NCBI GenBank assembly: GCA_025463265.1
Contig: JAOBWH010000059.1
Location: forward strand, 1 to 37,540
Direction: 5' to 3'
DNA from: Ilumatobacteraceae bacterium
Lineage (GTDB): Bacteria; Actinomycetota; Acidimicrobiia; Acidimicrobiales; Iamiaceae
Length of the DNA stretch: 37,540 nt
A program made the translations under genes and the position numbers. The notes below the pieces were generated by a model that ran no database searches, was not told the DNA's origin, and saw nothing but the letters and a program-made list of their open reading frames with translations. How positions within the stretch are numbered: position 1 is the first letter of the stretch; each line of letters begins with the position of its first letter. This document shows positions 284 through 15,107 of the stretch, piece by piece.

Positions 284-333
284 CCTGGCGTGTGGCCCGC
301 ACGACGGTGCGGCCGCACGCCAGGTGTCGTTTT
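284..333 (+). terminator. Strong hairpin with short T-rich tail between rpsI and glmM
   Basis: Bases 284-302 (CCTGGCGTGTGGCCCGCAC) pair with 307-324 (GTGCGGCCGCACGCCAGG) around a GACG loop. This gives about 18 pairs with one G-T wobble and one bulged C, followed by TGTCGTTTT. It looks like an intrinsic terminator for the rpsI operon. It ends only 14 bases before the glmM ribosome binding site, and I see no promoter in between, so it may instead act as a leaky terminator or attenuator for glmM. Confidence 0.6.
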
Positions 334-354
334 CGCCGGAGGACCACAGGTCGC

Positions 355-1695
355 ATGACGTTGAAGTTCGGCACCGACGGGGTGCGGGGGGTGGCCAACC
401 GGGAGCTCACGCCGGAGCTGGCGCTGACGTTGGGGCGGTCGGCGGCCCGCGTGCTCGGGGGCAGTCGTTGGGTGATCGGCAGCGACACCCGCCGCTCGGG
501 GCCGCTCCTCGCCGCGGCGCTGGCCTCGGGGCTGGCGTCGGAAGGCGTGGAGGTGGTCGACCTCGGGGTGCTGCCCACCCCCGGTGTGGCCCACATCTCG
601 GCGGTCGACGGGGTGGCTGCGGCCATGATCTCGGCGTCCCACAACCCGTTCGGCGACAACGGCATCAAGCTGTTCTCCGCCGGCGGGCTCAAGCTGTCCG
701 ACGAGCTCGAGGAGCGGCTGGAGCTCGAGCTCACCGCGCTCAGCGGGCAGGGCGACCCCCGCCCTCGCCCGACGGGGTCCGAGGTCGGCACCATCACCAC
801 CGACCACGGCGCCATCGATCGGTACCGGCGCTTCCTCGCCGAGGACGTCGTCCCGCCCGGGTCGCTCGCCGGCCTGACCGTCGTGCTCGACGGTGCCAAC
901 GGCGCAGCGGCCGAGCTGGCCCAGGGAGTGTTCGAGGCGCTCGGCGCCTCGGCCGTGGCCATCCACATCGATCCCGACGGGATCAACATCAACGAGGCGT
1001 CCGGCTCCACGCACCCCGAGGCGCTCCAGGCCGCCGTCCTCGCCCACGGGGCCGACGTCGGCCTCGCGTTCGACGGCGACGCCGACCGGGTGCTCGCGGT
1101 GGACGCGGCGGGGGAGCTCGTCGACGGCGACCAGATCATCGCCATCTGCGCCATCGACCGGCACGAGCGGGGCAAGCTCACCCACGACACGGTCGTGGTG
1201 ACGGTCATGAGCAACCTCGGGTTCCGGCAGGGGATGGCCGCGCACGGGATCGAGGTGATCACCACGGACGTCGGCGACCGCTACGTGCTCGAGGCGCTCG
1301 ACGAGGGCAAACACTGCCTCGGCGGCGAGCAGTCCGGCCACGTCATCTTCCGCGACCTGGCCTCCACCGGCGACGGCATGCTCACCGGCATCGCGCTCTT
1401 GTCGGTCATGGCTCGTCAGGAGCGCTCGCTCGCCGATCTGGCGACGGTGGCGATGACCCGGCTGCCGCAGGTGCTGGTCAACGTGCGCACGGCGCGGCGG
1501 GACCCCGGTCTGGTGAAGAAGCTCGGGCCCGATGTGGCCGCGGCCGAGCAGCGCCTCGGCGAGCGGGGCCGGGTCCTGCTGCGCCCCAGCGGCACCGAGC
1601 CCGTGATCCGGGTGATGGTCGAGGCGCCGACCCACGAGGAGGCGGCGGAGATCGCTGGGCACCTGGCGGCGGTGGTCACCACGCTCGGCGCCTGA
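355..1695 (+). CDS. glmM: Phosphoglucosamine mutase
   Basis: The enzyme converts glucosamine-6-phosphate to glucosamine-1-phosphate on the route to UDP-GlcNAc and peptidoglycan. The protein has 446 residues, normal for GlmM. It shows all four alpha-D-phosphohexomutase signatures: N-terminal KFGTDGVRGVAN; the phosphoserine loop SASHNP with the reactive serine at about S95; the metal loop FDGDADR; the sugar-binding GGEQSGH; and the C-terminal phosphate-binding RPSGTEPVIRVM. The ATG at 355 is chosen because the family's N-terminus (MTLKFGTDGVRG) begins there and GGAGGA lies at 338-343. The longer frame from 292 runs into the upstream hairpin and has no homology. It is followed by a convergent gene ending at 1733; glmS comes after that gene. 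Confidence 0.96.
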   Translation: MTLKFGTDGVRGVANRELTPELALTLGRSAARVLGGSRWVIGSDTRRSGPLLAAALASGLASEGVEVVDLGVLPTPGVAHISAVDGVAAAMISASHNPFGDNGIKLFSAGGLKLSDELEERLELELTALSGQGDPRPRPTGSEVGTITTDHGAIDRYRRFLAEDVVPPGSLAGLTVVLDGANGAAAELAQGVFEALGASAVAIHIDPDGININEASGSTHPEALQAAVLAHGADVGLAFDGDADRVLAVDAAGELVDGDQIIAICAIDRHERGKLTHDTVVVTVMSNLGFRQGMAAHGIEVITTDVGDRYVLEALDEGKHCLGGEQSGHVIFRDLASTGDGMLTGIALLSVMARQERSLADLATVAMTRLPQVLVNVRTARRDPGLVKKLGPDVAAAEQRLGERGRVLLRPSGTEPVIRVMVEAPTHEEAAEIAGHLAAVVTTLGA

Positions 1696-2747: not shown

Positions 2748-5700
2748 ATGTGCGGCATCATCGCCGTCGTCCGTCGTCGCAGCGCCCGCTCGGCGCCCAC
2801 GTCGGCTGAGCTGCTCACGCTCCTCGACGGAGCCGCGGACGCCCTGCGCGACGCGCCGTCCGACGGGCTCGACGGCGCCCTGGCCCGGGTGGCCGAACGG
2901 GTGGAGTCGGTCGACCGCCTCCTGCGGGGGACCCCGGGCATCGCCGCCCTCCTCGGAGACCGGAACCTGACCCCCGCCATCGACCGTGCCGGGGCCGACA
3001 TCGCCGCAGCTCTGGCCGAGCGCGAGGGCGCCCTGGACGACGACCCGTCGGCCACGGCGGCCCTCGAGTCCATCAACGCTGCGGTCATCCGCCTCAAAGA
3101 CGCCCTCTGGGCGGTCCAGCGCGACCGGCTCCCCACCGCCCGGGCCGTGGCCGACCTGGCGGGTCCGACGCCCAGCCCGTCCACCACCGATGCGTTCGCC
3201 TCGGTGCAGGCGGCGCTCAGCGCCATCGATCGCCTCGAGGTGCGCGGCCGCGACTCCGCCGGGTTGATGCTGCTCGTCCACGGACACGGGCTCGATCTGA
3301 CCGATCAGGCCGTCGCCGCCCTGCTGGCCGAGCGCGACGACGACCCGCTGTTCACGGCGGGCGCGGTCCGCGTCACGCCCGAAGGCCACCTGAGCTTCGT
3401 CTACAAGGCGGCCGCCGAGATCGGCGAGCTCGGCGACAACACGGCCGTGCTCCGGGCCGCCATCCGCGACGACGCCCTCCTGCACCTGGCCACGGCGTCC
3501 GAAGGCGCCGAGGTCACGGTCCTCGGCCACACCCGCTGGGCCTCCATCGGGATCATCTCCCAGCCCAACGCCCACCCCATGAACTCCGACGAGGTCGGTT
3601 ACCTCGGCGGGCCGTACGTCACCGCTGCGCTCAACGGCGACGTCGACAACTTCGCCGATCTCAAGGTCAGCGACGAGCTGCGCATCGCGGCGGAGATCAC
3701 CAGCGACGCCAAGGTGATCCCCACCCTCGTCTCGCGCCGCCTCGCCGCCGGCGACGGAGCGGTCGACGCCTTTCGGCAGTCGGTCCGCCGCTTCGACGGG
3801 TCGGTGGCCATCGCCGCCAACGTCGCCAGCGCGCCGAACCGACTCCAGCTCGCCCTCCGGGGCAGCGGCCAGGCCCTCTACGTCGGCCTCGACGAGGACC
3901 TGTACGTGGTCGCCTCGGAGCCCTACGGCGTCGTCGAAGACGCCACGAGCTACCTCCGGCTCGACGGCGAGACCCCGGCCGACCCCACCAACCCGTCGGC
4001 CTCCCGCGGCCAGGTCGTGGAGCTCGACGCCGCCCTGGCGGGCACCGTTGAGGGCGTCCGCCGGTTCTCCTACGACGGCACCGAGCTGCCGTTCGAGGAA
4101 TCGGAGCTGGTGACCCCCGAGGTCACCACGCGCGACATCGATCGCGGTTCGTACCAGCACTTCCTCCTCAAGGAGATCGAGGAGGCGCCGGGCTCGTTCC
4201 GCAAGACCCTCCGCGGGAAGATCGCCGCAGACGGCGACCTGCTGCGGGCCTCGCTCGGCGATGCCACGCTGCCGCGCTCGGTCCGAAACGACCTGCGGTC
4301 GGGCCGCATCACCCGGGTCAAGGTCATCGGCCAGGGGACGGCGGCCGTCGCCGGCCAGAGCCTCGGCCGGGCGCTGGCCGCCGAGCTGGCGGCCACGGAG
4401 GTGCGGGTCGAGGCCCTGCCGGCCACGGAGCTGTCGGGGTTCTCGCTCCTCTCCGACATGTCCAACACGCTCATCATCGCCATCAGCCAGTCGGGCACCA
4501 CCACCGACACGAACCGCACGGTCGACCTGGTGCGGGCCCGCGGCGCCAAGGTGATCGCCATCGTCAACCGCCGCGCCAGCGACCTCACCGACAAGAGCGA
4601 CGGCGTGCTCTACACCTCGGACGGCCGCGACGTCGAGATGAGCGTGGCGTCCACCAAGGCGTTCTACGCCCAGATCGCCGCCGGCTTCCTGCTCGCCATC
4701 GCCATCGCCCAGGAGGTCCCGGGGACCGAGGAGCGGGCGTCGGTCCGCCACGAGATCCTCACCGGGCTGCGCGACCTGCCGGCGGCCATGGAGGAGACGC
4801 TCGCCCGTCGCCCGGCCATCGCCGAGGCCGCCCAGGAGCTGGCGCCCTCGCGCCGCTACTGGGCCATCGTCGGCTCGGGTGACAACCGGGTCGCGGCGGA
4901 GGAGATCCGCATCAAGCTGTCGGAGCTCTGCTACAAGGCCATCGCCTCGGACGCCATCGAGGACAAGAAGCACATCGATCTGTCGTCGGAGCCGCTGATC
5001 CTCGTTTGCGCCGCCGGCCTCATGGGATCCAACGCCGACGACGTGGCGAAGGAGGTGGCCATCTACCGGGCTCACAAGGCCACGCCGATCGTCGTCGCCA
5101 CCGAGGACGAGGACCGCTTCAGCGCCGCGCTGCGCGTCCTCACGGTCCCGAGCGTCCACACCCGCCTCGCCTTCGTGCTGACCACGGTCGTCGGCCACCT
5201 GTTCGGCTACGAGGCCGCGCTCGCCATCGACGCCCAGGCCCGCGGCCTGCGCGAGGCGCGGGGTGCCATCGAGGATGCCATCTCCAGTCCCGCCGTCGCC
5301 GACGTGGACCGTCTGCTCGCCGATCTGCGCCCGAGCTTGGAGCCGGTGGCGGCCCGCTTCCACGACGGCCTCCGCAGCGGGGCGTACAACGGCAGCCTGG
5401 AGGCCGGCACCGCCGTCCGCCTGGCGTCGATGTTCCGCTACGCCACCGGCATCGCCCCCCTCGACGCCTACCAGGTGGAGCACGGCCGAGTGGGCACGCC
5501 GAGCGTCGTGATCGAGGACCTCACCGCGGCGCTCACCGGCGCCATCGAGGAGCTCACCCGGCCCGTCGACGCCATCAAGCACCAGGCCAAGACGGTCACC
5601 GTGGGCATCTCCCGGTCCGACGAGAGCCTGCTCGACATCGCGCTGGTGCAGGCGGCCCTCAACGCCGGTGCCGCCCGCGACCGCCTCAGCTACAAGGCGC

Positions 5701-6209
5701 TGCGGACCCTGGCCGGCCTCGACGCCGCCATCGACGACGTCGTGGGCTACACGCGCTACCGGATCGAGGGCGACGTGGAGGAGGGCGAGGCCACCATCGT
5801 CGTGGTCGACCGGGGCGGCATCGCCCGCGACCTCCCCCAGCGCACCGAGCGCAACCCGCTGCTGCGCGGCACCAAGCACCGCGTCGCCACCGAGCGTGAG
5901 GTCACCGTCGCCGTCGGGCGCAGCGACGGCCGCACGCTCGTGCTCATCCCCGAGGTCAAGGGCACCCAGTGCACCGGCATCACCCTGCTGCACTGCCGGT
6001 TCGCCGATGAGCTCGCCGCGGGGCGCATGCGGTCGGTCCTCGAGGCCTACCGAGGGCGCTACGCCGCGCTCAAAGACGCCGTCACCGAGACCGAGCCCAC
6101 GTTCCGCGACGACCTCCTCGGGACGCTCCCACCCATCGAGATCCTCACCACGCCGGTCAACGTGCTGGCCGACCGCTGGCGCTCGTCGGATGATGGGCCG
6201 GTCGCGTGA
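2748..6209 (+). CDS. glmS: Giant glutamine-fructose-6-phosphate aminotransferase (GlmS) with three large insertions/extensions
   Basis: GlmS makes glucosamine-6-phosphate from fructose-6-phosphate and glutamine. The start at 2748 is fixed by MCGII (Cys2 becomes the N-terminal nucleophile) and GGAGGAA at 2736-2742. The protein is 1153 residues; the usual length is about 610. Visible order: Cys2; a helical insert of about 140 residues; RGRDSAG (166-172); HTRWASIG (R263, W264); NAH (H276); NG at 296-297; D320; first SIS domain with SQSG at 580-583 and VASTKAF at 633-639; second SIS domain with K723, E726 and H742, matching E. coli K485/E488/H504. Then comes an insert of about 150 residues, the C-tail motif AKTVTVG whose K948 matches E. 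coli K603, and about 200 further residues with no family I know. The glutaminase motif RWATHG reads RWASIG. Matches to E. coli numbering are from memory. The catalytic residues are retained, so I infer a working synthase. Confidence 0.93.
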   Translation: MCGIIAVVRRRSARSAPTSAELLTLLDGAADALRDAPSDGLDGALARVAERVESVDRLLRGTPGIAALLGDRNLTPAIDRAGADIAAALAEREGALDDDPSATAALESINAAVIRLKDALWAVQRDRLPTARAVADLAGPTPSPSTTDAFASVQAALSAIDRLEVRGRDSAGLMLLVHGHGLDLTDQAVAALLAERDDDPLFTAGAVRVTPEGHLSFVYKAAAEIGELGDNTAVLRAAIRDDALLHLATASEGAEVTVLGHTRWASIGIISQPNAHPMNSDEVGYLGGPYVTAALNGDVDNFADLKVSDELRIAAEITSDAKVIPTLVSRRLAAGDGAVDAFRQSVRRFDGSVAIAANVASAPNRLQLALRGSGQALYVGLDEDLYVVASEPYGVVEDATSYLRLDGETPADPTNPSASRGQVVELDAALAGTVEGVRRFSYDGTELPFEESELVTPEVTTRDIDRGSYQHFLLKEIEEAPGSFRKTLRGKIAADGDLLRASLGDATLPRSVRNDLRSGRITRVKVIGQGTAAVAGQSLGRALAAELAATEVRVEALPATELSGFSLLSDMSNTLIIAISQSGTTTDTNRTVDLVRARGAKVIAIVNRRASDLTDKSDGVLYTSDGRDVEMSVASTKAFYAQIAAGFLLAIAIAQEVPGTEERASVRHEILTGLRDLPAAMEETLARRPAIAEAAQELAPSRRYWAIVGSGDNRVAAEEIRIKLSELCYKAIASDAIEDKKHIDLSSEPLILVCAAGLMGSNADDVAKEVAIYRAHKATPIVVATEDEDRFSAALRVLTVPSVHTRLAFVLTTVVGHLFGYEAALAIDAQARGLREARGAIEDAISSPAVADVDRLLADLRPSLEPVAARFHDGLRSGAYNGSLEAGTAVRLASMFRYATGIAPLDAYQVEHGRVGTPSVVIEDLTAALTGAIEELTRPVDAIKHQAKTVTVGISRSDESLLDIALVQAALNAGAARDRLSYKALRTLAGLDAAIDDVVGYTRYRIEGDVEEGEATIVVVDRGGIARDLPQRTERNPLLRGTKHRVATEREVTVAVGRSDGRTLVLIPEVKGTQCTGITLLHCRFADELAAGRMRSVLEAYRGRYAALKDAVTETEPTFRDDLLGTLPPIEILTTPVNVLADRWRSSDDGPVA

Positions 6210-6293: not shown

Positions 6294-6659
6294 GTGATCG
6301 GCATCGGGGTCGACCTCGTCGAGGTCGACCGCATGCGCACCGTGCTGGCCCGCACGCCCACCATGGTCGAGAAGCTGTTCACGCCCGGGGAGCGGGCCTA
6401 CGCCGAGGCCGCCCACGACCCGACCGAGCGCTACGCCGCCCGCTTCGCGGCCAAGGAGGCCGTGCTGAAGGCCCTGGGCGTGGGCCTCGGCGCCGCGGAC
6501 TGGCACGACATCGAGGTCGTCCGCAGCGATCGCGGTGCCCCGGGTCTCGTGGTCACCGGCCGGGCGCTCGCCCTCGCCGACGCCGCGGGGGTGTCTCGCT
6601 GGCTGCTCACCTTGACCCACACGGAATCGATGGCCGAAGCCATCGCCGTCGCCCTCTGA
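6294..6659 (+). CDS. acpS: Holo-[acyl-carrier-protein] synthase
   Basis: AcpS transfers the 4'-phosphopantetheine arm from CoA to a serine of acyl carrier protein, activating it for fatty acid synthesis. The 121-residue protein has the usual length and both signatures: N-terminal IGIGVDLVEVDR with the metal ligand D7, and RFAAKEAVLKALG with E55, which with D7 binds magnesium. The C-terminus LTHTESMAEAIAVA matches the family's SHxxxxAxA strand. The GTG at 6294 gives the expected MIGIGVDLVE start. It lies 7 bases after the small membrane peptide and 84 bases after glmS, so it is very likely co-transcribed with glmS. It faces the F420 reductase gene tail to tail. Confidence 0.95.
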   Translation: MIGIGVDLVEVDRMRTVLARTPTMVEKLFTPGERAYAEAAHDPTERYAARFAAKEAVLKALGVGLGAADWHDIEVVRSDRGAPGLVVTGRALALADAAGVSRWLLTLTHTESMAEAIAVAL

Positions 6660-7903: not shown

Positions 7904-7970
7904 CCGCCCATGCTCGCGGCTGGCGGGCGACGGTGCGCAAACGAGCCGCGCTAACTGTGGCAAGCAGTCG

Positions 7971-7976
7971 TAGGAT
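7971..7976 (+). promoter_or_regulatory. Putative -10 box (TAGGAT) giving a near-leaderless cyclase mRNA
   Basis: TAGGAT ends 7 bases before the ATG at 7984. In actinobacteria the first transcribed base lies about 6-7 bases after the -10 box, so the mRNA would begin at or one base before the start codon. No Shine-Dalgarno site with normal spacing is needed. One of several similar arrangements in the window. Confidence 0.45.
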
Positions 7977-7983
7977 GCCGACG

Positions 7984-10900
7984 ATGACCTGTTCGGCATG
8001 CGGGGCCCTGGCAGCGGACGACGCACGATTCTGCGCGTCGTGCGGCCGACCGCTGCGCAGCGTCGAGGACGAGCGTCGGGTCGTCACGGTCCTGTTCGCC
8101 GACCTGGTGGGCTTCACCTCGCTGTCGGAACGGCTCGACCCCGAACGGGTGAAGAACCTGGTGGATCGCTGCTTCGACCGGCTGGCCGAGGACGTCACCA
8201 GCTTCGGCGGGCAGGTCGACAAGATCGTCGGCGACGCGCTCGTGGCCCTGTTCGGCGCCACCACGGCGCACGAGGATGATCCCGAGCGTGCCGTCCGAGC
8301 CGCCCTGCGGATGCAGGCGACGCTGTGCGAGGAGGCCGAGATCATCGCCCAGGACCTCCAGATGCGCGTCGGCATCAACACCGGCGAGGTGCTGGTGGGG
8401 GCCATGCGCGCCGCCGGATCGGTCACCGCGATGGGCGACGTCGTCAACACGGCCAGCCGCCTCCAGACCAGCGCCCGGCCCGGTGAGGTGCTCGTCGGCC
8501 CGGCCACCTACGCCGCCACCCACCACACCATCGCCTACGAGTCCCGGGGCCTGCTCGACGCCAAGGGCCGCGACGAGCTCGTGGAGACCTGGGTCGCGGT
8601 GGCGCCCACCCTGCCGCCGGGGTACCGCGCGCGCCGCGTCGACGTTCCGCTCATCGGCCGGGCGGCGGAGCTCGGGCTGCTCAACACGGTGATCGACAGC
8701 TCCATCCGCAACGACCGGGCGATGCTGGCCCTGCTCGTGGCCGATGTGGGCATAGGCAAGAGCCGCCTCGCCGATGAGGTCGCCGCTGCTGCTGCCAGCG
8801 CGCACGGCGCCATCATCCGCGAGGGTCGCTGCGTGCCCTACGGGGAGGCCAACGTGTGGTGGCCGGTGGCCGACGCCCTCCGCCCCGCCCTCGAGGTGCC
8901 CGAGGGCGCGTCGGCCGACGACGCCCGCACCGCGGTGCGCGGTGCCGTCGCCGAGGTGATGGAGCGCCGCACCACGGACCCGGAGGTCCAGCGCACGGCC
9001 GAAGGGCTGCTCACCCTGTTGGGCTACGACCCGCCGATCGAAGCCGAGCCGACCACGGTCCGCCAGGAGGCCGGTCGGGCGCTCAGCGCCTACGCCGCCG
9101 CCTCCGCCCGCCACCGCCCGCTCATCCTGCAGATCTCGGACCTGCACTGGGCCGACGAATCGGTGCTGTCGCTCATCGACGACGTGTTCAGCGCGATCCA
9201 CCACTGCCCGGTGGTCGTGCTGGCCACCGCCCGCCCGGCGCTGCTGGACCAGTGGACGCCCCGCCACGGCCGTCACAACTCGCTCACCCTCCACCTCGAC
9301 CCGTTGGGTCGGGAGGCCACGGGTGAACTGCTCGAGCACCTCGTCGGCGCCCCGGTGCCCGAAGCGGTGGCCGCCGCGCTGTTCGACCGCAGCGGCGGCA
9401 ACCCGTTCTTCCTCGAGGAGCTGGTGAGCCTCCTCGATGGCGAGGCCATGGCCGAGCCCGGCCGGGTGGCCACCCTGCCCGACACGCTGCGGGGGCTGGT
9501 GGCGGCGCGCCTCGACGACCTCACCCCCGCGCAGCGCGGCGTGCTCCAGGACGCCAGCGTGATCGGCCAGCGGGGCCCGATGCTGGGCCTGCGGGAGATG
9601 GGCCGGAAGCTGCGGGTCGGCGTCGACATCGACCTGGCCATGGCGGACCTGGTGGCCGACGAGATCATGGAGGTCGACGGCGAGCTCTGGTCGTTCCGCT
9701 CGGACCTCGTGCGGGAGGTCGCCTACCAGACCATCACCAAGGCCGAGCGGGCCACGTGCCACCTCGGCATCGCCTCGTTCATCGAGGAGAAGGCCGCCGA
9801 CGTCGACCCCCGCCCGCCCTGGGTGGTCGATCAGCTGGCCCACCACTACGGCGCTGCGGTGGCTCTGGCTTCGGAGCTCGGCCCCAACGCCCGCACCGAC
9901 GCCTTCCCCGCCGACCTCGCCGCCCGGGCCCGCCGCTGGGTCACCGAGGCCGCGGACCGAGCCCGTCGCGACCAGGCCCTGCCGGCGTCGATCCGGCTGT
10001 ACACGCAGGCGCTCGACCTCCTGGGCGATGTCGACGCAGCGGGAACGCCCGCCGCCGACGTGGCTGAGGCCATCCGCATCCACCTGGCCCGATCGAGCGC
10101 GGCGGCCGAAGGCTGGGAGCTGGCGCTCGGCCGCACCGACGCGGAACGGGCCTACGCCCTCGCCGAGGCGGCCGGCGATGGGGCCGGTGCGGCCCGGGCG
10201 CTCATCGCCCGCGGCTCCATCGAGCAGAAGGAGGGCGACGTCGACGCCGCCGTCGCCACCATGTCCACCGCGGCCGAACGGTTCCGGGAGATGGGGGACC
10301 TGGGCGGGCTGGGCGAGGCGCTGCGCCGACGCGGCATGGTCGAGATCTTCGGCAGCCGGATCCTCGATGCCGAGCTCTCGGCCGAAGCGGCGATCGCTGC
10401 GTTCGAGGAGGTCGACGATCGCGCCGGTCAGGCCTGGGCGTCGCAGAACCTCGCATGGACGGCGTTCATCAGCGGCCGCCCCGACGAGGCGGACCGCCGG
10501 CTCCAGGTGGCCATCGAGATGTTCAGCGACCTGGTCGACACCCAGGGCCTGGCGTGGAGCCTCGGACTGCTCGCCTGGGTCCGGTTCCAGCAGGGCCGCG
10601 TCGCCGAGGCGCAGGCGCTGGGGGAGCAGGTGCTCGACGAGGCCCGCGCCCGCAGCGACCCGTGGGCGACGGCGATGATGGTGATGCTCGTGGCATCGGT
10701 CCGCCTGTGGGCGGGCCGCACGGACGAGGCCGTCACCATGGCCGAACAGGCGCTGCGCACCTTCACCAGCCTGGGCGATCGCTACGGCTCGACCCAGGCG
10801 TCAGCCGTGCTCGGCCGGGCCCTGGTGATGGCGGGCCGCATCGAGGAGGGCTTCGCCCTGCTGGTCAAGGCCGGGACCACCGAGTCCACCGACGGCCGCC

Positions 10901-11523
10901 CGTCCGATGGCGACGGCATGCAAGCGCGCTTCGCCCGGCTCGCGGCCTCCCTGCAGGTGGGCGAGCCGCACCGGGGAGCATCGGTGCTCGAGGAGATCGA
11001 GGTGCTGGCGGTGGCCGGGATGGGGGGCGACGATGCGGCGGCGGCGATCGCCGCGGCTGCGCTGATGGCGGGCGACATCGCCGCTGCGGAAGCGCACCTG
11101 GCCGAGGCCCGCACGCAGGACCGCGACCCCAACGTCATGGCCGTCCAGGCGCTCACCGCAGCGGCGGCAGGGACGGGCGGGGCCGCCGCCATCGCCGACC
11201 GGATCGACGACGCTTCGGGCGCCACCTACCTCGACCGGGCCATGGCCAACACGGCCGCCGCGCTCGAGGCCGCAGCCGGCGATGCGGGCGCAGCGGAGGC
11301 GGTGCGCCGTCTGTCCATCGCCCGCGCTGCGGTGCAGCCCACCGAGGACCGGGTCGCGAAGGCCGTGGTCGAGCTCGGCGCCGCCGCCATGTCGAGCCGG
11401 CTGGCCCTGCCCGAGGCCGAAGAGGACGCCGCCCGTGCCGAGCACCTGGTCGCCAAGCTCGGCATCGATCCGGCCGGTTGGAACCAGGTCTTCGCCCTCG
11501 CCACCCGCGCCGTCCCCACCTGA
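7984..11523 (+). CDS. Class III adenylate cyclase-like regulator with zinc ribbon, AAA/STAND-type ATPase and TPR region
   Basis: The 1179-residue protein has a modular layout. Residues 3-21 form a zinc ribbon (CSAC...CASC). Residues 33-160 are a class III nucleotide cyclase domain with metal-binding D40 (FADLVGFT) and D84 (GDALVALFG), the ATP-selecting pair K80 and D152, and transition-state N155 and R159 (GDVVNTASR). All catalytic residues are present, so cyclic AMP synthesis is plausible. From about 222 (PLIGRAAEL) an ATPase module follows, with Walker A ADVGIGKS (K259) and a Walker B region ISDLHWADES. The C-terminal half (about 650-1150) is alanine-rich and helical with TPR-like pairs. 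Such proteins sense unknown signals through the ATPase/TPR part. The start at 7984 is preferred by its TAGGAT box; ATG 7975 would add three residues. Confidence 0.9.
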   Translation: MTCSACGALAADDARFCASCGRPLRSVEDERRVVTVLFADLVGFTSLSERLDPERVKNLVDRCFDRLAEDVTSFGGQVDKIVGDALVALFGATTAHEDDPERAVRAALRMQATLCEEAEIIAQDLQMRVGINTGEVLVGAMRAAGSVTAMGDVVNTASRLQTSARPGEVLVGPATYAATHHTIAYESRGLLDAKGRDELVETWVAVAPTLPPGYRARRVDVPLIGRAAELGLLNTVIDSSIRNDRAMLALLVADVGIGKSRLADEVAAAAASAHGAIIREGRCVPYGEANVWWPVADALRPALEVPEGASADDARTAVRGAVAEVMERRTTDPEVQRTAEGLLTLLGYDPPIEAEPTTVRQEAGRALSAYAAASARHRPLILQISDLHWADESVLSLIDDVFSAIHHCPVVVLATARPALLDQWTPRHGRHNSLTLHLDPLGREATGELLEHLVGAPVPEAVAAALFDRSGGNPFFLEELVSLLDGEAMAEPGRVATLPDTLRGLVAARLDDLTPAQRGVLQDASVIGQRGPMLGLREMGRKLRVGVDIDLAMADLVADEIMEVDGELWSFRSDLVREVAYQTITKAERATCHLGIASFIEEKAADVDPRPPWVVDQLAHHYGAAVALASELGPNARTDAFPADLAARARRWVTEAADRARRDQALPASIRLYTQALDLLGDVDAAGTPAADVAEAIRIHLARSSAAAEGWELALGRTDAERAYALAEAAGDGAGAARALIARGSIEQKEGDVDAAVATMSTAAERFREMGDLGGLGEALRRRGMVEIFGSRILDAELSAEAAIAAFEEVDDRAGQAWASQNLAWTAFISGRPDEADRRLQVAIEMFSDLVDTQGLAWSLGLLAWVRFQQGRVAEAQALGEQVLDEARARSDPWATAMMVMLVASVRLWAGRTDEAVTMAEQALRTFTSLGDRYGSTQASAVLGRALVMAGRIEEGFALLVKAGTTESTDGRPSDGDGMQARFARLAASLQVGEPHRGASVLEEIEVLAVAGMGGDDAAAAIAAAALMAGDIAAAEAHLAEARTQDRDPNVMAVQALTAAAAGTGGAAAIADRIDDASGATYLDRAMANTAAALEAAAGDAGAAEAVRRLSIARAAVQPTEDRVAKAVVELGAAAMSSRLALPEAEEDAARAEHLVAKLGIDPAGWNQVFALATRAVPT

Positions 11524-13637: not shown

Positions 13638-15107
13638 GTGTGGATCTTCGTGACGGGAGCGTTGGCCATCGGGCTCGGGTTCGCCTGCCTGTCGAGCTGG
13701 CGGAAGAAGTGGGTCATCGACGACACCCCGACATCGACGTGTCGGGGCGTGTTCGTGGGCCGCAACGAGGTCGTCGGCCAAGCGGTGCCGCTCTACGAGC
13801 CGATCGTGACGCCGTTCTCGCAGACCCCGGCGGTGTGGTTCAGCTGGGACCTCGAGCGCTGGCAGAAGTCCGGTGACAACAGCAGCTGGGTCACCCAGGA
13901 GTCGCGGCAGACAGCAGCGCCGTTCTGGCTCCAGGACGACACCGGCCGGGTGCTGGTGCGCCCCCGAGGCGCCGAGCTCGAACCGGTGCAGACGCTGTGC
14001 GAGAAGCTCGACAGCAGCTTCGCCCCGCCCTACAGCCGCTGGCAGCTGCGCCAGTGGGTGCTGATGGGGGAGGACACCACCGAGCGCATGCAGAGCCTCA
14101 CAGACGCCAGCTTCCTGGAGGCGCCCAGCGACGGCGGCGGGTTCTTCAACAGTGCGCCCGACACCGTCAGCCCCATCTCGAACCTCAGCGGGAAGTGGCG
14201 CATCACCGAGAAGGTCATCGCCGCGGGCGCGCCCATCTACCTCCTCGGCACGGCGGCGCCCCGCACGGACGGGCCGGGCCTGGAGTTCGCCGGGAGCGCC
14301 GGCGACCTGTTGGTCTCCACCAAGTCCGAGGAGCAGGTGGCCAAGTCGAGCGGATGGTCGGCCCGTCTGTGCGGCCTCGGATGCCTGCTGCTCTCCGCAG
14401 TGTTCGTCGGTGCCGCATCCGACGCCGTGTTCGACGAGGTCAAGTGGTTCCTCATCGTCTGGACGCTCGGCTTCGAGGTGGGGATCTTGTTCCTGCTGAC
14501 CCTGCAGCGGAACTACAACCGCCAGGTCGAGGTGAAGGAGCAGGCCGCCAAGGCGTGGTCGCTCATCGACGTCAGCCTCCAACGCCGGTCCGAGCTGATC
14601 CCCAACCTCGTCGAGGTCGTCAAGCAGTACACGAAGCACGAGCGCGAGGTGCAGGAGGCGGTCGCGGAGCTGCGAGCGGTCCCCGAGAAGCCCCCGACCG
14701 AGGAACTGCCCAGCGACGCCACCCTCGAAGGCGCCCAGAACACCGACCGCGGGCTCAAGTCGGCCGCCAAGACCACGGTGGCGCTGGCCGAGGACTACCC
14801 GGACCTCAAGGCCAGCCAGGTGTACCTCGACCTCCAGCTGCGCATCGCCGACGCCGAGGAGTCCGTGGCGTCGTCTCGGCAGTTCTACAACGACGCCATC
14901 GAGGTGCTCCGGACCCGGCGCTCCCAGTTCCCGGGCAGCCTCTTCGCCCGCTTCGTCGAGGTGCCCTCCTGGAAGCTCTTCGAAGCCGAGGAGGCGGCGA
15001 CGTTCGTCCCGTCGGTCGCCATCGCTCCCAGCGCCGCGCCCACCCTGGACCCCGCCGCCGCCGCCCCGGCGACGCCGCCGGATCCGCCGGGCGCGTCGAC
15101 GTTCTGA
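13638..15107 (+). CDS. GIDE-domain/LemA-domain fusion membrane protein
   Basis: The 489-residue protein joins two families. After an N-terminal membrane segment, residues about 30-235 resemble the GIDE (MULAN-type) domain: RGVFVGRNEVVGQAVPL, later PFWLQDDTGRVLV, and WRITEKVIAAGAPIYLLGTA. There is no RING finger, so no ubiquitin-ligase role is implied. Two membrane segments follow at about 243-259 and 268-285. Residues about 288-440 are a LemA domain with WSLIDVSLQRRSELIPNLVEVV and FYNDAIEVLRTR. The tail is rich in Ala and Pro. The LemA part is helical and should face the cytosol or periplasm next to the membrane; its role is unknown. The GTG at 13638 sits 6 bases after TAGACC, a degenerate leaderless-type box. 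It is divergent from the CDF transporter. Confidence 0.85.
   Translation: MWIFVTGALAIGLGFACLSSWRKKWVIDDTPTSTCRGVFVGRNEVVGQAVPLYEPIVTPFSQTPAVWFSWDLERWQKSGDNSSWVTQESRQTAAPFWLQDDTGRVLVRPRGAELEPVQTLCEKLDSSFAPPYSRWQLRQWVLMGEDTTERMQSLTDASFLEAPSDGGGFFNSAPDTVSPISNLSGKWRITEKVIAAGAPIYLLGTAAPRTDGPGLEFAGSAGDLLVSTKSEEQVAKSSGWSARLCGLGCLLLSAVFVGAASDAVFDEVKWFLIVWTLGFEVGILFLLTLQRNYNRQVEVKEQAAKAWSLIDVSLQRRSELIPNLVEVVKQYTKHEREVQEAVAELRAVPEKPPTEELPSDATLEGAQNTDRGLKSAAKTTVALAEDYPDLKASQVYLDLQLRIADAEESVASSRQFYNDAIEVLRTRRSQFPGSLFARFVEVPSWKLFEAEEAATFVPSVAIAPSAAPTLDPAAAAPATPPDPPGASTF

Follow-up and report, generated by a model that had tools for sequence, protein, structure and literature searches.

What has been added to a GlmS that is nearly twice the usual length, and does the enlarged protein still do the work of the ordinary one? 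The question is raised by a gene at positions 2748–6209 of contig JAOBWH010000059.1 (assembly GCA_025463265.1) from an Ilumatobacteraceae bacterium of the class Acidimicrobiia; the 37,540 nucleotides analysed are called the window here. Escherichia coli-type GlmS has about 610 residues, and the window gene encodes 1153. An initial annotation, made from the letters of the window, had described a GlmS with two internal insertions and a C-terminal extension, and the observation of a double-length GlmS is confirmed. The protein begins MCGIIAVVRR, and the G+C content at third codon positions (GC3) of 0.94 marks the frame as a real gene. Our preferred reading, which we think somewhat probable, is that the large GlmS forms a GlmS subfamily with allosteric control built in, in cis.

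A large form of GlmS

The protein matches the NCBIfam models PRK00331 (E 1.5e-70, 238.3 bits) and TIGR01135 (E 3.7e-66, 223.9 bits), but fails their curated cut-offs of 381 and 418.05, respectively. These GlmS models span residues 240–827. The next family, NagB-II, follows at E 2.7e-13, and Pfam recognises a single SIS domain, SIS1 (E 1.1e-17). Going by these matches, the large form is filed as a putative divergent GlmS subfamily beside or outside TIGR01135 and PRK00331. Because the scores lie below the curated cut-offs, an essential enzyme may be overlooked or wrongly named when genomes of a large group of environmental actinobacteria are annotated.

Relative to E. coli GlmS the main insertions are residues 10–148 (139 residues, predicted helical), 831–939 (109, predicted helical) and 953 to the end (201); smaller ones are found at 180–212 (33) and 233–248 (16). 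The aligner paired E. coli E608 with D1149, which is spurious, and the extension is counted from 953 to the end. The helical insert of about 140 residues after the N-terminal strand and the 200 or so residues beyond the normal C-tail had both been recognised in the initial annotation, as had the insert between SIS2 and the C-tail, although this last is 109 residues long and not about 150. The large forms aligned, 75 in number, range from 1117 to 1183 residues.

The N-terminal insert is nearly gap-free across 78 aligned family members. Over the 75 rows, the mean frequency of the commonest residue is 0.46 in this insert, 0.68 in the glutaminase core, 0.75 in the SIS domains, 0.61 in the middle insert, 0.96 in the C-tail and 0.66 in the tail domain. 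Thus the tail domain and the glutaminase core are under about equal constraint, and the N-terminal insert is loosely conserved. Profile searches of the extra regions against solved proteins gave nothing convincing; the best matches of the N-terminal insert (E 0.0053 and 0.035) were to designed coiled coils or bundles, as is expected for helices.

The catalytic core

The residue alignment consists of the 75 large forms, E. coli K-12 GlmS (L136) and 27 other normal GlmS. The large forms comprise 58 of 78 complete members, kept at less than 80% pairwise identity, and 17 of 19 further loci; L115 and L120, whose start is absent from the fetched stretch, and L147, which gave no match, were left out. 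The catalytic residues named at the outset all align with those of E. coli at the positions first given. In the glutaminase part, C2 corresponds to C1, R263/W264 to R73/W74, N296/G297 to N98/G99 and D320 to D123; in the isomerase part, S580-Q581-S582 corresponds to S347-Q348-S349, K723 to K485, E726 to E488, H742 to H504 and K948 to K603. C1, R26, R73, W74, H86, N98, G99 and D123 (E. coli numbering) are invariant in 75/75 large and 28/28 normal forms, as are Q348, S349, K485, E488, H504 and K603. S347 and T352 are likewise present in every large form; among the 28 normal ones, 25 have S347, the other three having T at this position, and 26 have T352.

The glutamine-site motif RWATHG, read as RWASIG in the window protein, is RWAS[V/I/M]G in 75/75 large forms: T76 is replaced by S and H77 by V, I or M, whereas positions 76–77 are TH in all 28 normal forms. 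Other signature changes of the large form are E351 to T, H493 to S or A, E495 to A, S or P, and G500 to E. Identity to E. coli GlmS is about 27%.

An AlphaFold model of the full chain, built with 58 sequences, has a mean predicted local distance difference test score (pLDDT) of 86.2 and a predicted template-modelling score (pTM) of 0.75; parts of the active-site loops and of the C-tail fall below pLDDT 50 in this single-chain model. It superposes on human GFAT-1 (6r4i_B) with Z 39.9 and a root-mean-square deviation (rmsd) of 4.3 over 583 aligned residues, and on E. coli GlmS (1jxa_A) with Z 38.7 and rmsd 4.8 over 573. The superposition covers model residues 2–829, that is, the glutaminase and the double-SIS fold. 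With the GlmS core complete, the large form looks like a working GlmS, as the initial annotation had proposed.

The C-tail and the domain beyond it

The C-tail of E. coli GlmS is held by a salt bridge between R331 and E608 (PMC8041777), and Lys603 participates in isomerisation (PMC9272926). In the large form the C-tail is internal and not terminal, as the chain runs on for 201 residues beyond V952. Because the chain continues through G953, E608 is absent as a terminus. Just 8/75 large forms retain R331, versus R in 26/28 normal ones; E608 is found in 28/28 of the latter. A folded domain therefore stands in place of the tail lock. The earlier expectation that an extension at this point must alter the behaviour of the C-tail gains support, since the R331–E608 lock is gone.

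Modelled alone with AlphaFold, residues 950–1153 give pLDDT 91.4 and pTM 0.87; this model was built with 48 sequences, and the three alignments derived from the family alignment likewise take 48 of its 58 rows. Four long strands are predicted, with helices before, between and after them. The sole PDB match found by Foldseek at E ≤0.001 is chain 7jsr_A (E 5.1e-4). VIA-align places model residues 15–203 on residues 174–368 of this chain with Z 8.8 and rmsd 5.1 over 167 aligned positions, and 7jsr_A is the only chain at Z ≥8 among 989 aligned to the tail model. The other 49 rows shown have Z 5.7–7.1 and are mostly GAF and PAS/Cache-type sensor domains. The 7JSR structure is that of L-GDH180, the 180-kDa glutamate dehydrogenase (GDH) of Mycobacterium smegmatis, and residues 174–368 are probably the PAS-type part of this large GDH. 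As modelled, the tail domain resembles metabolite sensor domains. A match at E 0.35–0.5 to the GTPase Der/EngA, over positions 44–104 of the profile and with a weak Pfam MMR_HSR1 match, was treated as chance, and a viral structure library gave no match to the tail at E 0.001.

In the tail domain 31/195 positions reach 95% conservation or more, and several polar residues are among these, namely R1003, Y1004, R1032, K1043, D1060, R1062 and E1069.

TnsD, a protein of Tn7, is reported to bind where the glmS coding region ends, at a conserved sequence (PMC2918618). In the large-form gene the C-tail codons (5565–5603) lie about 600 bases inside, and so Tn7-type targeting by a TnsD-type protein would, we propose, strike the tail domain.

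Distribution of the large and normal forms

No second GlmS was found in the genome of the window, a draft of 204 contigs that is 96% complete: one of its three TIGR01135 matches spans the enzyme, and this is the large form. The large GlmS, the only one detected in the organism, appears to behave as its housekeeping GlmS.

The form is also widespread. A profile scan of genome contigs was limited to the best 80 of at least 478 confirmed relatives, with 56–83% identity. The whole large form is present in 77 of these 80 fetched loci, and the other three (L041, L058 and L080) end at a contig edge. Among the relatives are Aquihabitans sp. G128, with a complete chromosome, and the IMCC26207 record, which is not marked as a metagenome-assembled genome (MAG). 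Titles that name Bifidobacterium, Thermoanaerobacterales or Acidobacteria are probably those of mislabelled MAGs. A plasmid collection yielded 311 matching records, none covering 80% of the query.

Within the class sample the two forms do not occur together. In a sample of 148 class genomes, a TIGR01135 match above cut-off was taken as the normal form (14/14 in the control) and a match to the tail profile as the large form. The large form was found in 57 genomes, the normal form in 83, both in none and neither in 8. Seven of these eight (in our numbering G054, G057, G077, G093, G112, G128, G132 and G143) belong to a small-genome family, f14, and are 70–87% complete; G093 has a piece of a normal GlmS at a contig end. 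G054, at 95% complete, has no GlmS of either form. By our reading of the profile scans, none of the 36 families sampled in the class is mixed. In the whole phylum the tail profile was found in 32/396 genomes, 22 of them in the class and 9 in other classes. The remaining match, in G414 (E 7.6e-5 over 65 positions of a 432-residue frame), was judged to be chance, and that genome has a normal GlmS. From the profile matches, many environmental actinobacteria appear to have the large GlmS in place of the normal one.

The genomic slot

The large-form gene lies between glmM, which encodes the next pathway step, and acpS. Among the 80 loci, glmM is upstream in 61/61 with at least 4 kb of upstream sequence, acpS is downstream in 57/65 with 2 kb or more on that side, and both flank the gene in 45/51 with enough flank. 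Of ten additional large-form loci from the class, 9 have glmM, 7 have acpS and 7 have both. Normal-form loci of the class share the slot, with glmM in 17/20, acpS in 14/20 and both in 12/20. In other classes the slot of the large form is mostly different (glmM in 0/4 and acpS in 1/9 loci with enough flank); one such locus, L114, has both neighbours, and its upstream flank is too short to count.

On a GlmS tree of 66 rows the large forms make up one clade, with a Shimodaira–Hasegawa-like approximate likelihood ratio (SH-aLRT) support of 100 and a stem of 6.83 changes per column. On this long stem the clade is placed, tentatively, near two haloarchaeal GlmS, with a support of only 88. When the GlmS form is mapped on a tree of GlmM, the product of the neighbouring gene (64 of 99 rows after 35 were thinned, including all 17 available normal-form rows), five changes of form are required, at least four of them on well-supported branches. 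It should be pointed out that both trees are quick ones without bootstrap, that one of the GlmM rows, L113, is very long and that GlmM, too, may have moved. On the simplest reading of the trees, large and normal GlmS have been swapped in situ at least twice, and repeated replacement in one slot argues that both forms do the same job.

Pathway context and other control

A GlmU-type match at E ≤3.4e-77 is present in 55/57 large-form class genomes, G039 and G075 having weak matches only. NagB is above cut-off in 2/57, with weaker matches in 29 more. By these counts, most large-form cells have the GlmS–GlmM–GlmU route and no obvious general substitute for GlmS.

In the order of the window, GlmU is shortened to about positions 2–344 of the 452 of the model (L206, L207 and L208). 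L206 is the shortened GlmU of the window genome itself (G000:C37:35574-36635), and in L207 and L208 the GlmU frame itself ends at the shortening point. A shortened GlmU is the best match in 21/23 large-form and 12/14 normal-form genomes of the order, and the others have no strong match; exceptions in extent are G031, where it ends at 240, and G002, where it runs through a stop to 362. The missing C-terminal part is presumably the acetyltransferase active site. Because of the shortening, the acetylation of glucosamine-1-phosphate is without an obvious enzyme in this order. Since 12/14 normal-form members share it, the shortening of GlmU goes with the order, whichever form of GlmS is present. 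Outside the order, 33 of 34 large-form genomes have an above-cut-off GlmU that reaches model position 431 or beyond.

In Bacillus subtilis, a separate protein, GlmR (YvcK), is proposed to exert control of GlmS activity that is sensitive to uridine diphosphate N-acetylglucosamine (UDP-GlcNAc) (PMC7525490). Loss of GlmR/YvcK was considered as a counterpart of the large form: matches occur in 35/57 large-form versus 49/83 normal-form genomes (49/56 without family f14), 4 of the 84 being partial or below cut-off. The pattern is lineage-bound and not decisive.

Proposed mechanism and alternatives

In the preferred reading, the large GlmS would make glucosamine-6-phosphate (GlcN6P) from fructose-6-phosphate and glutamine by the usual two-site chemistry: glutamine would be hydrolysed at Cys2, the ammonia passed on, and isomerisation carried out via E726/H742 and K948. 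A small molecule bound by the tail domain, perhaps UDP-GlcNAc or an amino acid, might shift the position or the mobility of the C-tail. Alternatively, the trigger could be a change in subunit packing through the tail domain and the two helical inserts. In either case the shift of the C-tail would control when the sugar site closes and how this site is coupled to the glutaminase. The core fold, the catalytic residues, the replacement pattern, the shared slot and the predicted tail fold are computed; it is enzymatic activity, ligand binding and gating by the C-tail that we infer from them.

A bolder version can be offered only tentatively. Here a metabolite-sensing domain grafted on the C-tail would gate entry into amino-sugar synthesis, self-regulated and plain GlmS would have been exchanged repeatedly in one slot, and a sensor fold shared with large GDH would tie wall precursors to nitrogen status.

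Several points weigh against the preferred reading. The tail Z of 8.8 barely exceeds the 7–8 that is typical of models without a clear match, and the GAF and PAS rows at Z 5.7–7.1 may be just a common arrangement. No Pfam PAS or GAF match was obtained at E ≤0.1 for the 48 tail sequences scanned, of the 78 members. Comparison of the tail profile with that of large GDH by hhalign was not significant, with P 0.11 for 48 tails against 13 GDH, and P 0.078 in a larger comparison of 85 of 95 tail rows with 33 GDH. The GDH loci came from the phylum, 13 of 16 being used at first (L173 and L174, which are short, and L183, read in the wrong frame, were left out). The best local pairing sets ‘VVGYTRYRIEG’ of the tail beside the GDH consensus ‘fLGyreY’. 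Given these two P values, the link from tail to GDH is one of predicted fold, and homology is not demonstrated. The two helical inserts also show no significant similarity to large GDH. Other control may exist, as GlmR/YvcK-type matches occur in the 35 large-form genomes mentioned above, and GlcN6P, the product, is named as an inhibitor of bacterial GlmS (PMC9272926). Outside the class, one of the nine large-form genomes (G187) has both forms, L148 and L116; its 5% contamination means that this co-occurrence may not be real. Finally, with RWAS[VIM]G in place of RWATHG and without H493 and E495, the large form may have kinetics unlike those of the normal enzyme.

Do the extra regions then simply serve structure? 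The protein would be an ordinary constitutive GlmS whose added parts act in oligomerisation or stability and bind no ligand. We give this a minority chance, well short of even. Both large inserts are predicted to be helical, the N-terminal one is poorly conserved, no sensor family model matches the tail, and control of bacterial GlmS is described as post-transcriptional, as against allosteric feedback in eukaryotes (PMC9272926). On the other hand, the tail domain is conserved to about the level of the glutaminase core, with several polar positions among its 31 most conserved; its predicted fold matches sensor domains best, and it is joined directly to the segment by which the sugar site is gated. 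Feedback control had been among the functions first suggested for the extra regions. The sensor-like fold of the tail favours it; the earlier interpretation is in this sense partly supported, in that a conserved core with three conserved extra regions was found and a regulatory role is only favoured.

A second catalytic activity in the tail, in amino-sugar or nitrogen metabolism, had also been suggested, and we consider it improbable. The domain is conserved and large enough, and the shortened GlmU of the order leaves a step that lacks an obvious enzyme. However, no catalytic family in the libraries searched matches the tail convincingly, and there was no sign there of a second catalytic activity; the fold matches mostly sensor domains. 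The GlmU argument is countered from two sides, by the shortened GlmU of normal-form members of the order and by the long GlmU of nearly all large-form genomes outside it.

Slightly less probable still is a glutamine amidotransferase–isomerase whose substrate is a different sugar phosphate, GlcN6P being supplied by some other route. The low identity to E. coli GlmS, scores below the curated cut-offs, altered glutamine-loop residues and the long stem of the clade could all be read in this way. Yet no TIGR01135 GlmS above cut-off is present in any of the 57 large-form class genomes, NagB is above cut-off in just two, and the strong GlmU-type match in 55 indicates that the pathway is in use; glmM is adjacent, and the two forms were apparently exchanged repeatedly in the same slot. 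The window is one contig of a 204-contig draft, but a fusion of two genes by assembly error, which the initial annotation had raised, is refuted by the 77 whole copies in different records, including the complete Aquihabitans chromosome.

Relation to known systems

The large form shares with E. coli-type GlmS (TIGR01135/PRK00331) the catalytic residues checked, the glutaminase and two SIS domains, the C-tail AK[TS]VTV, the slot beside glmM and the state of sole copy. It differs in its three large extra regions, its sequence divergence, the altered glutamine loop, the loss of H493 and E495 and the missing tail lock. Human GFAT-1, a eukaryotic GlmS with UDP-GlcNAc feedback and protein kinase A sites, has the same catalytic core. 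Direct allosteric feedback by UDP-GlcNAc has been described for eukaryotic GFAT (PMC9272926; PMC8041777), and in GFAT-1 UDP-GlcNAc is bound by the isomerase domain. GFAT-1 ends at its C-tail with the terminal Glu681 (PMC8041777), whereas the large form continues.

L-GDH180 provides the nearest solved fold to the tail, in its region 174–368, with 16% identity and no significant profile match. It is likewise an actinobacterial enzyme of nitrogen metabolism to which a sensor-type domain has been added, and the N-terminal segment of large GDH is proposed to hold metabolic sensors (PMC8175468). The region in L-GDH180 is N-terminal and accompanied by ACT-like domains; the tail domain of the large GlmS is C-terminal and alone. 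GlmR differs in being a separate protein and not a fused domain.

The large form is not described in the listed titles and abstract openings of the open-licence PubMed Central (PMC) literature searched, and on the present model it is a GlmS, a known enzyme kind, whose sensor-like tail is undescribed. Through GlmS, carbon and nitrogen are committed to the cell wall, and in the portions of the literature cited here control of the enzyme in bacteria is post-transcriptional, by product inhibition, or by a partner protein in Bacillus. If the sensor tail is real, the large form would be a natural experiment in gating GlmS via its moving catalytic tail.

Features of the window

Coordinates of the large-form gene, its parts and its two neighbours are collected in Table 1.

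Table 1. Features of the large-form glmS locus, in window positions
Feature	Positions	Strand	Basis
glmM, phosphoglucosamine mutase family, next pathway step	292–1695	+	Pfam PGM_PMM I–IV
Large-form glmS, full coding sequence, 1153 residues and stop	2748–6209	+	Open reading frame translation
Cys2 codon, N-terminal glutaminase nucleophile (E. coli C1)	2751–2753	+	C in 75/75 large forms
N-terminal insert, residues 10–148, predicted all-helical, between glutaminase strand 1 and helix 1	2775–3191	+	
Glutaminase core, residues 149–460 (R263, W264, N296, G297, D320)	3192–4127	+	Alignment, superposition
Isomerase core, two SIS domains, residues 461–830 (S580–S582, T585, K723, E726, H742)	4128–5237	+	
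Middle insert, residues 831–939, predicted helical, between SIS2 and C-tail	5238–5564	+	AlphaFold, alignment
Catalytic C-tail, residues 940–952 (VDAIKHQAKTVTV)	5565–5603	+	11/13 positions ≥95% conserved
K948 codon (E. coli K603), in C-tail	5589–5591	+	K in 75/75 large forms
C-terminal extension domain, residues 953–1153, predicted PAS/GAF-like alpha/beta fold	5604–6206	+	AlphaFold
acpS, 4′-phosphopantetheinyl transferase	6294–6659	+	Pfam ACPS, E 7.4e-19

No glmS ribozyme or other Rfam element reaches the gathering score in the window. Between glmM and glmS, a frame of 272 residues on the minus strand (1736–2551) has GC3 0.95 and a gene-like codon bias; no Pfam model matches it, and tblastn at E 1e-4 finds no counterpart in the other fetched loci. 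Further downstream on the plus strand, a protein of 1196 residues (7933–11520) combines an N-terminal zinc ribbon with an adenylate/guanylate cyclase domain, AAA_16 and TPR, and at 13638–15104, also on the plus strand, a GIDE (E3 ubiquitin ligase-type) domain is joined to a LemA domain.

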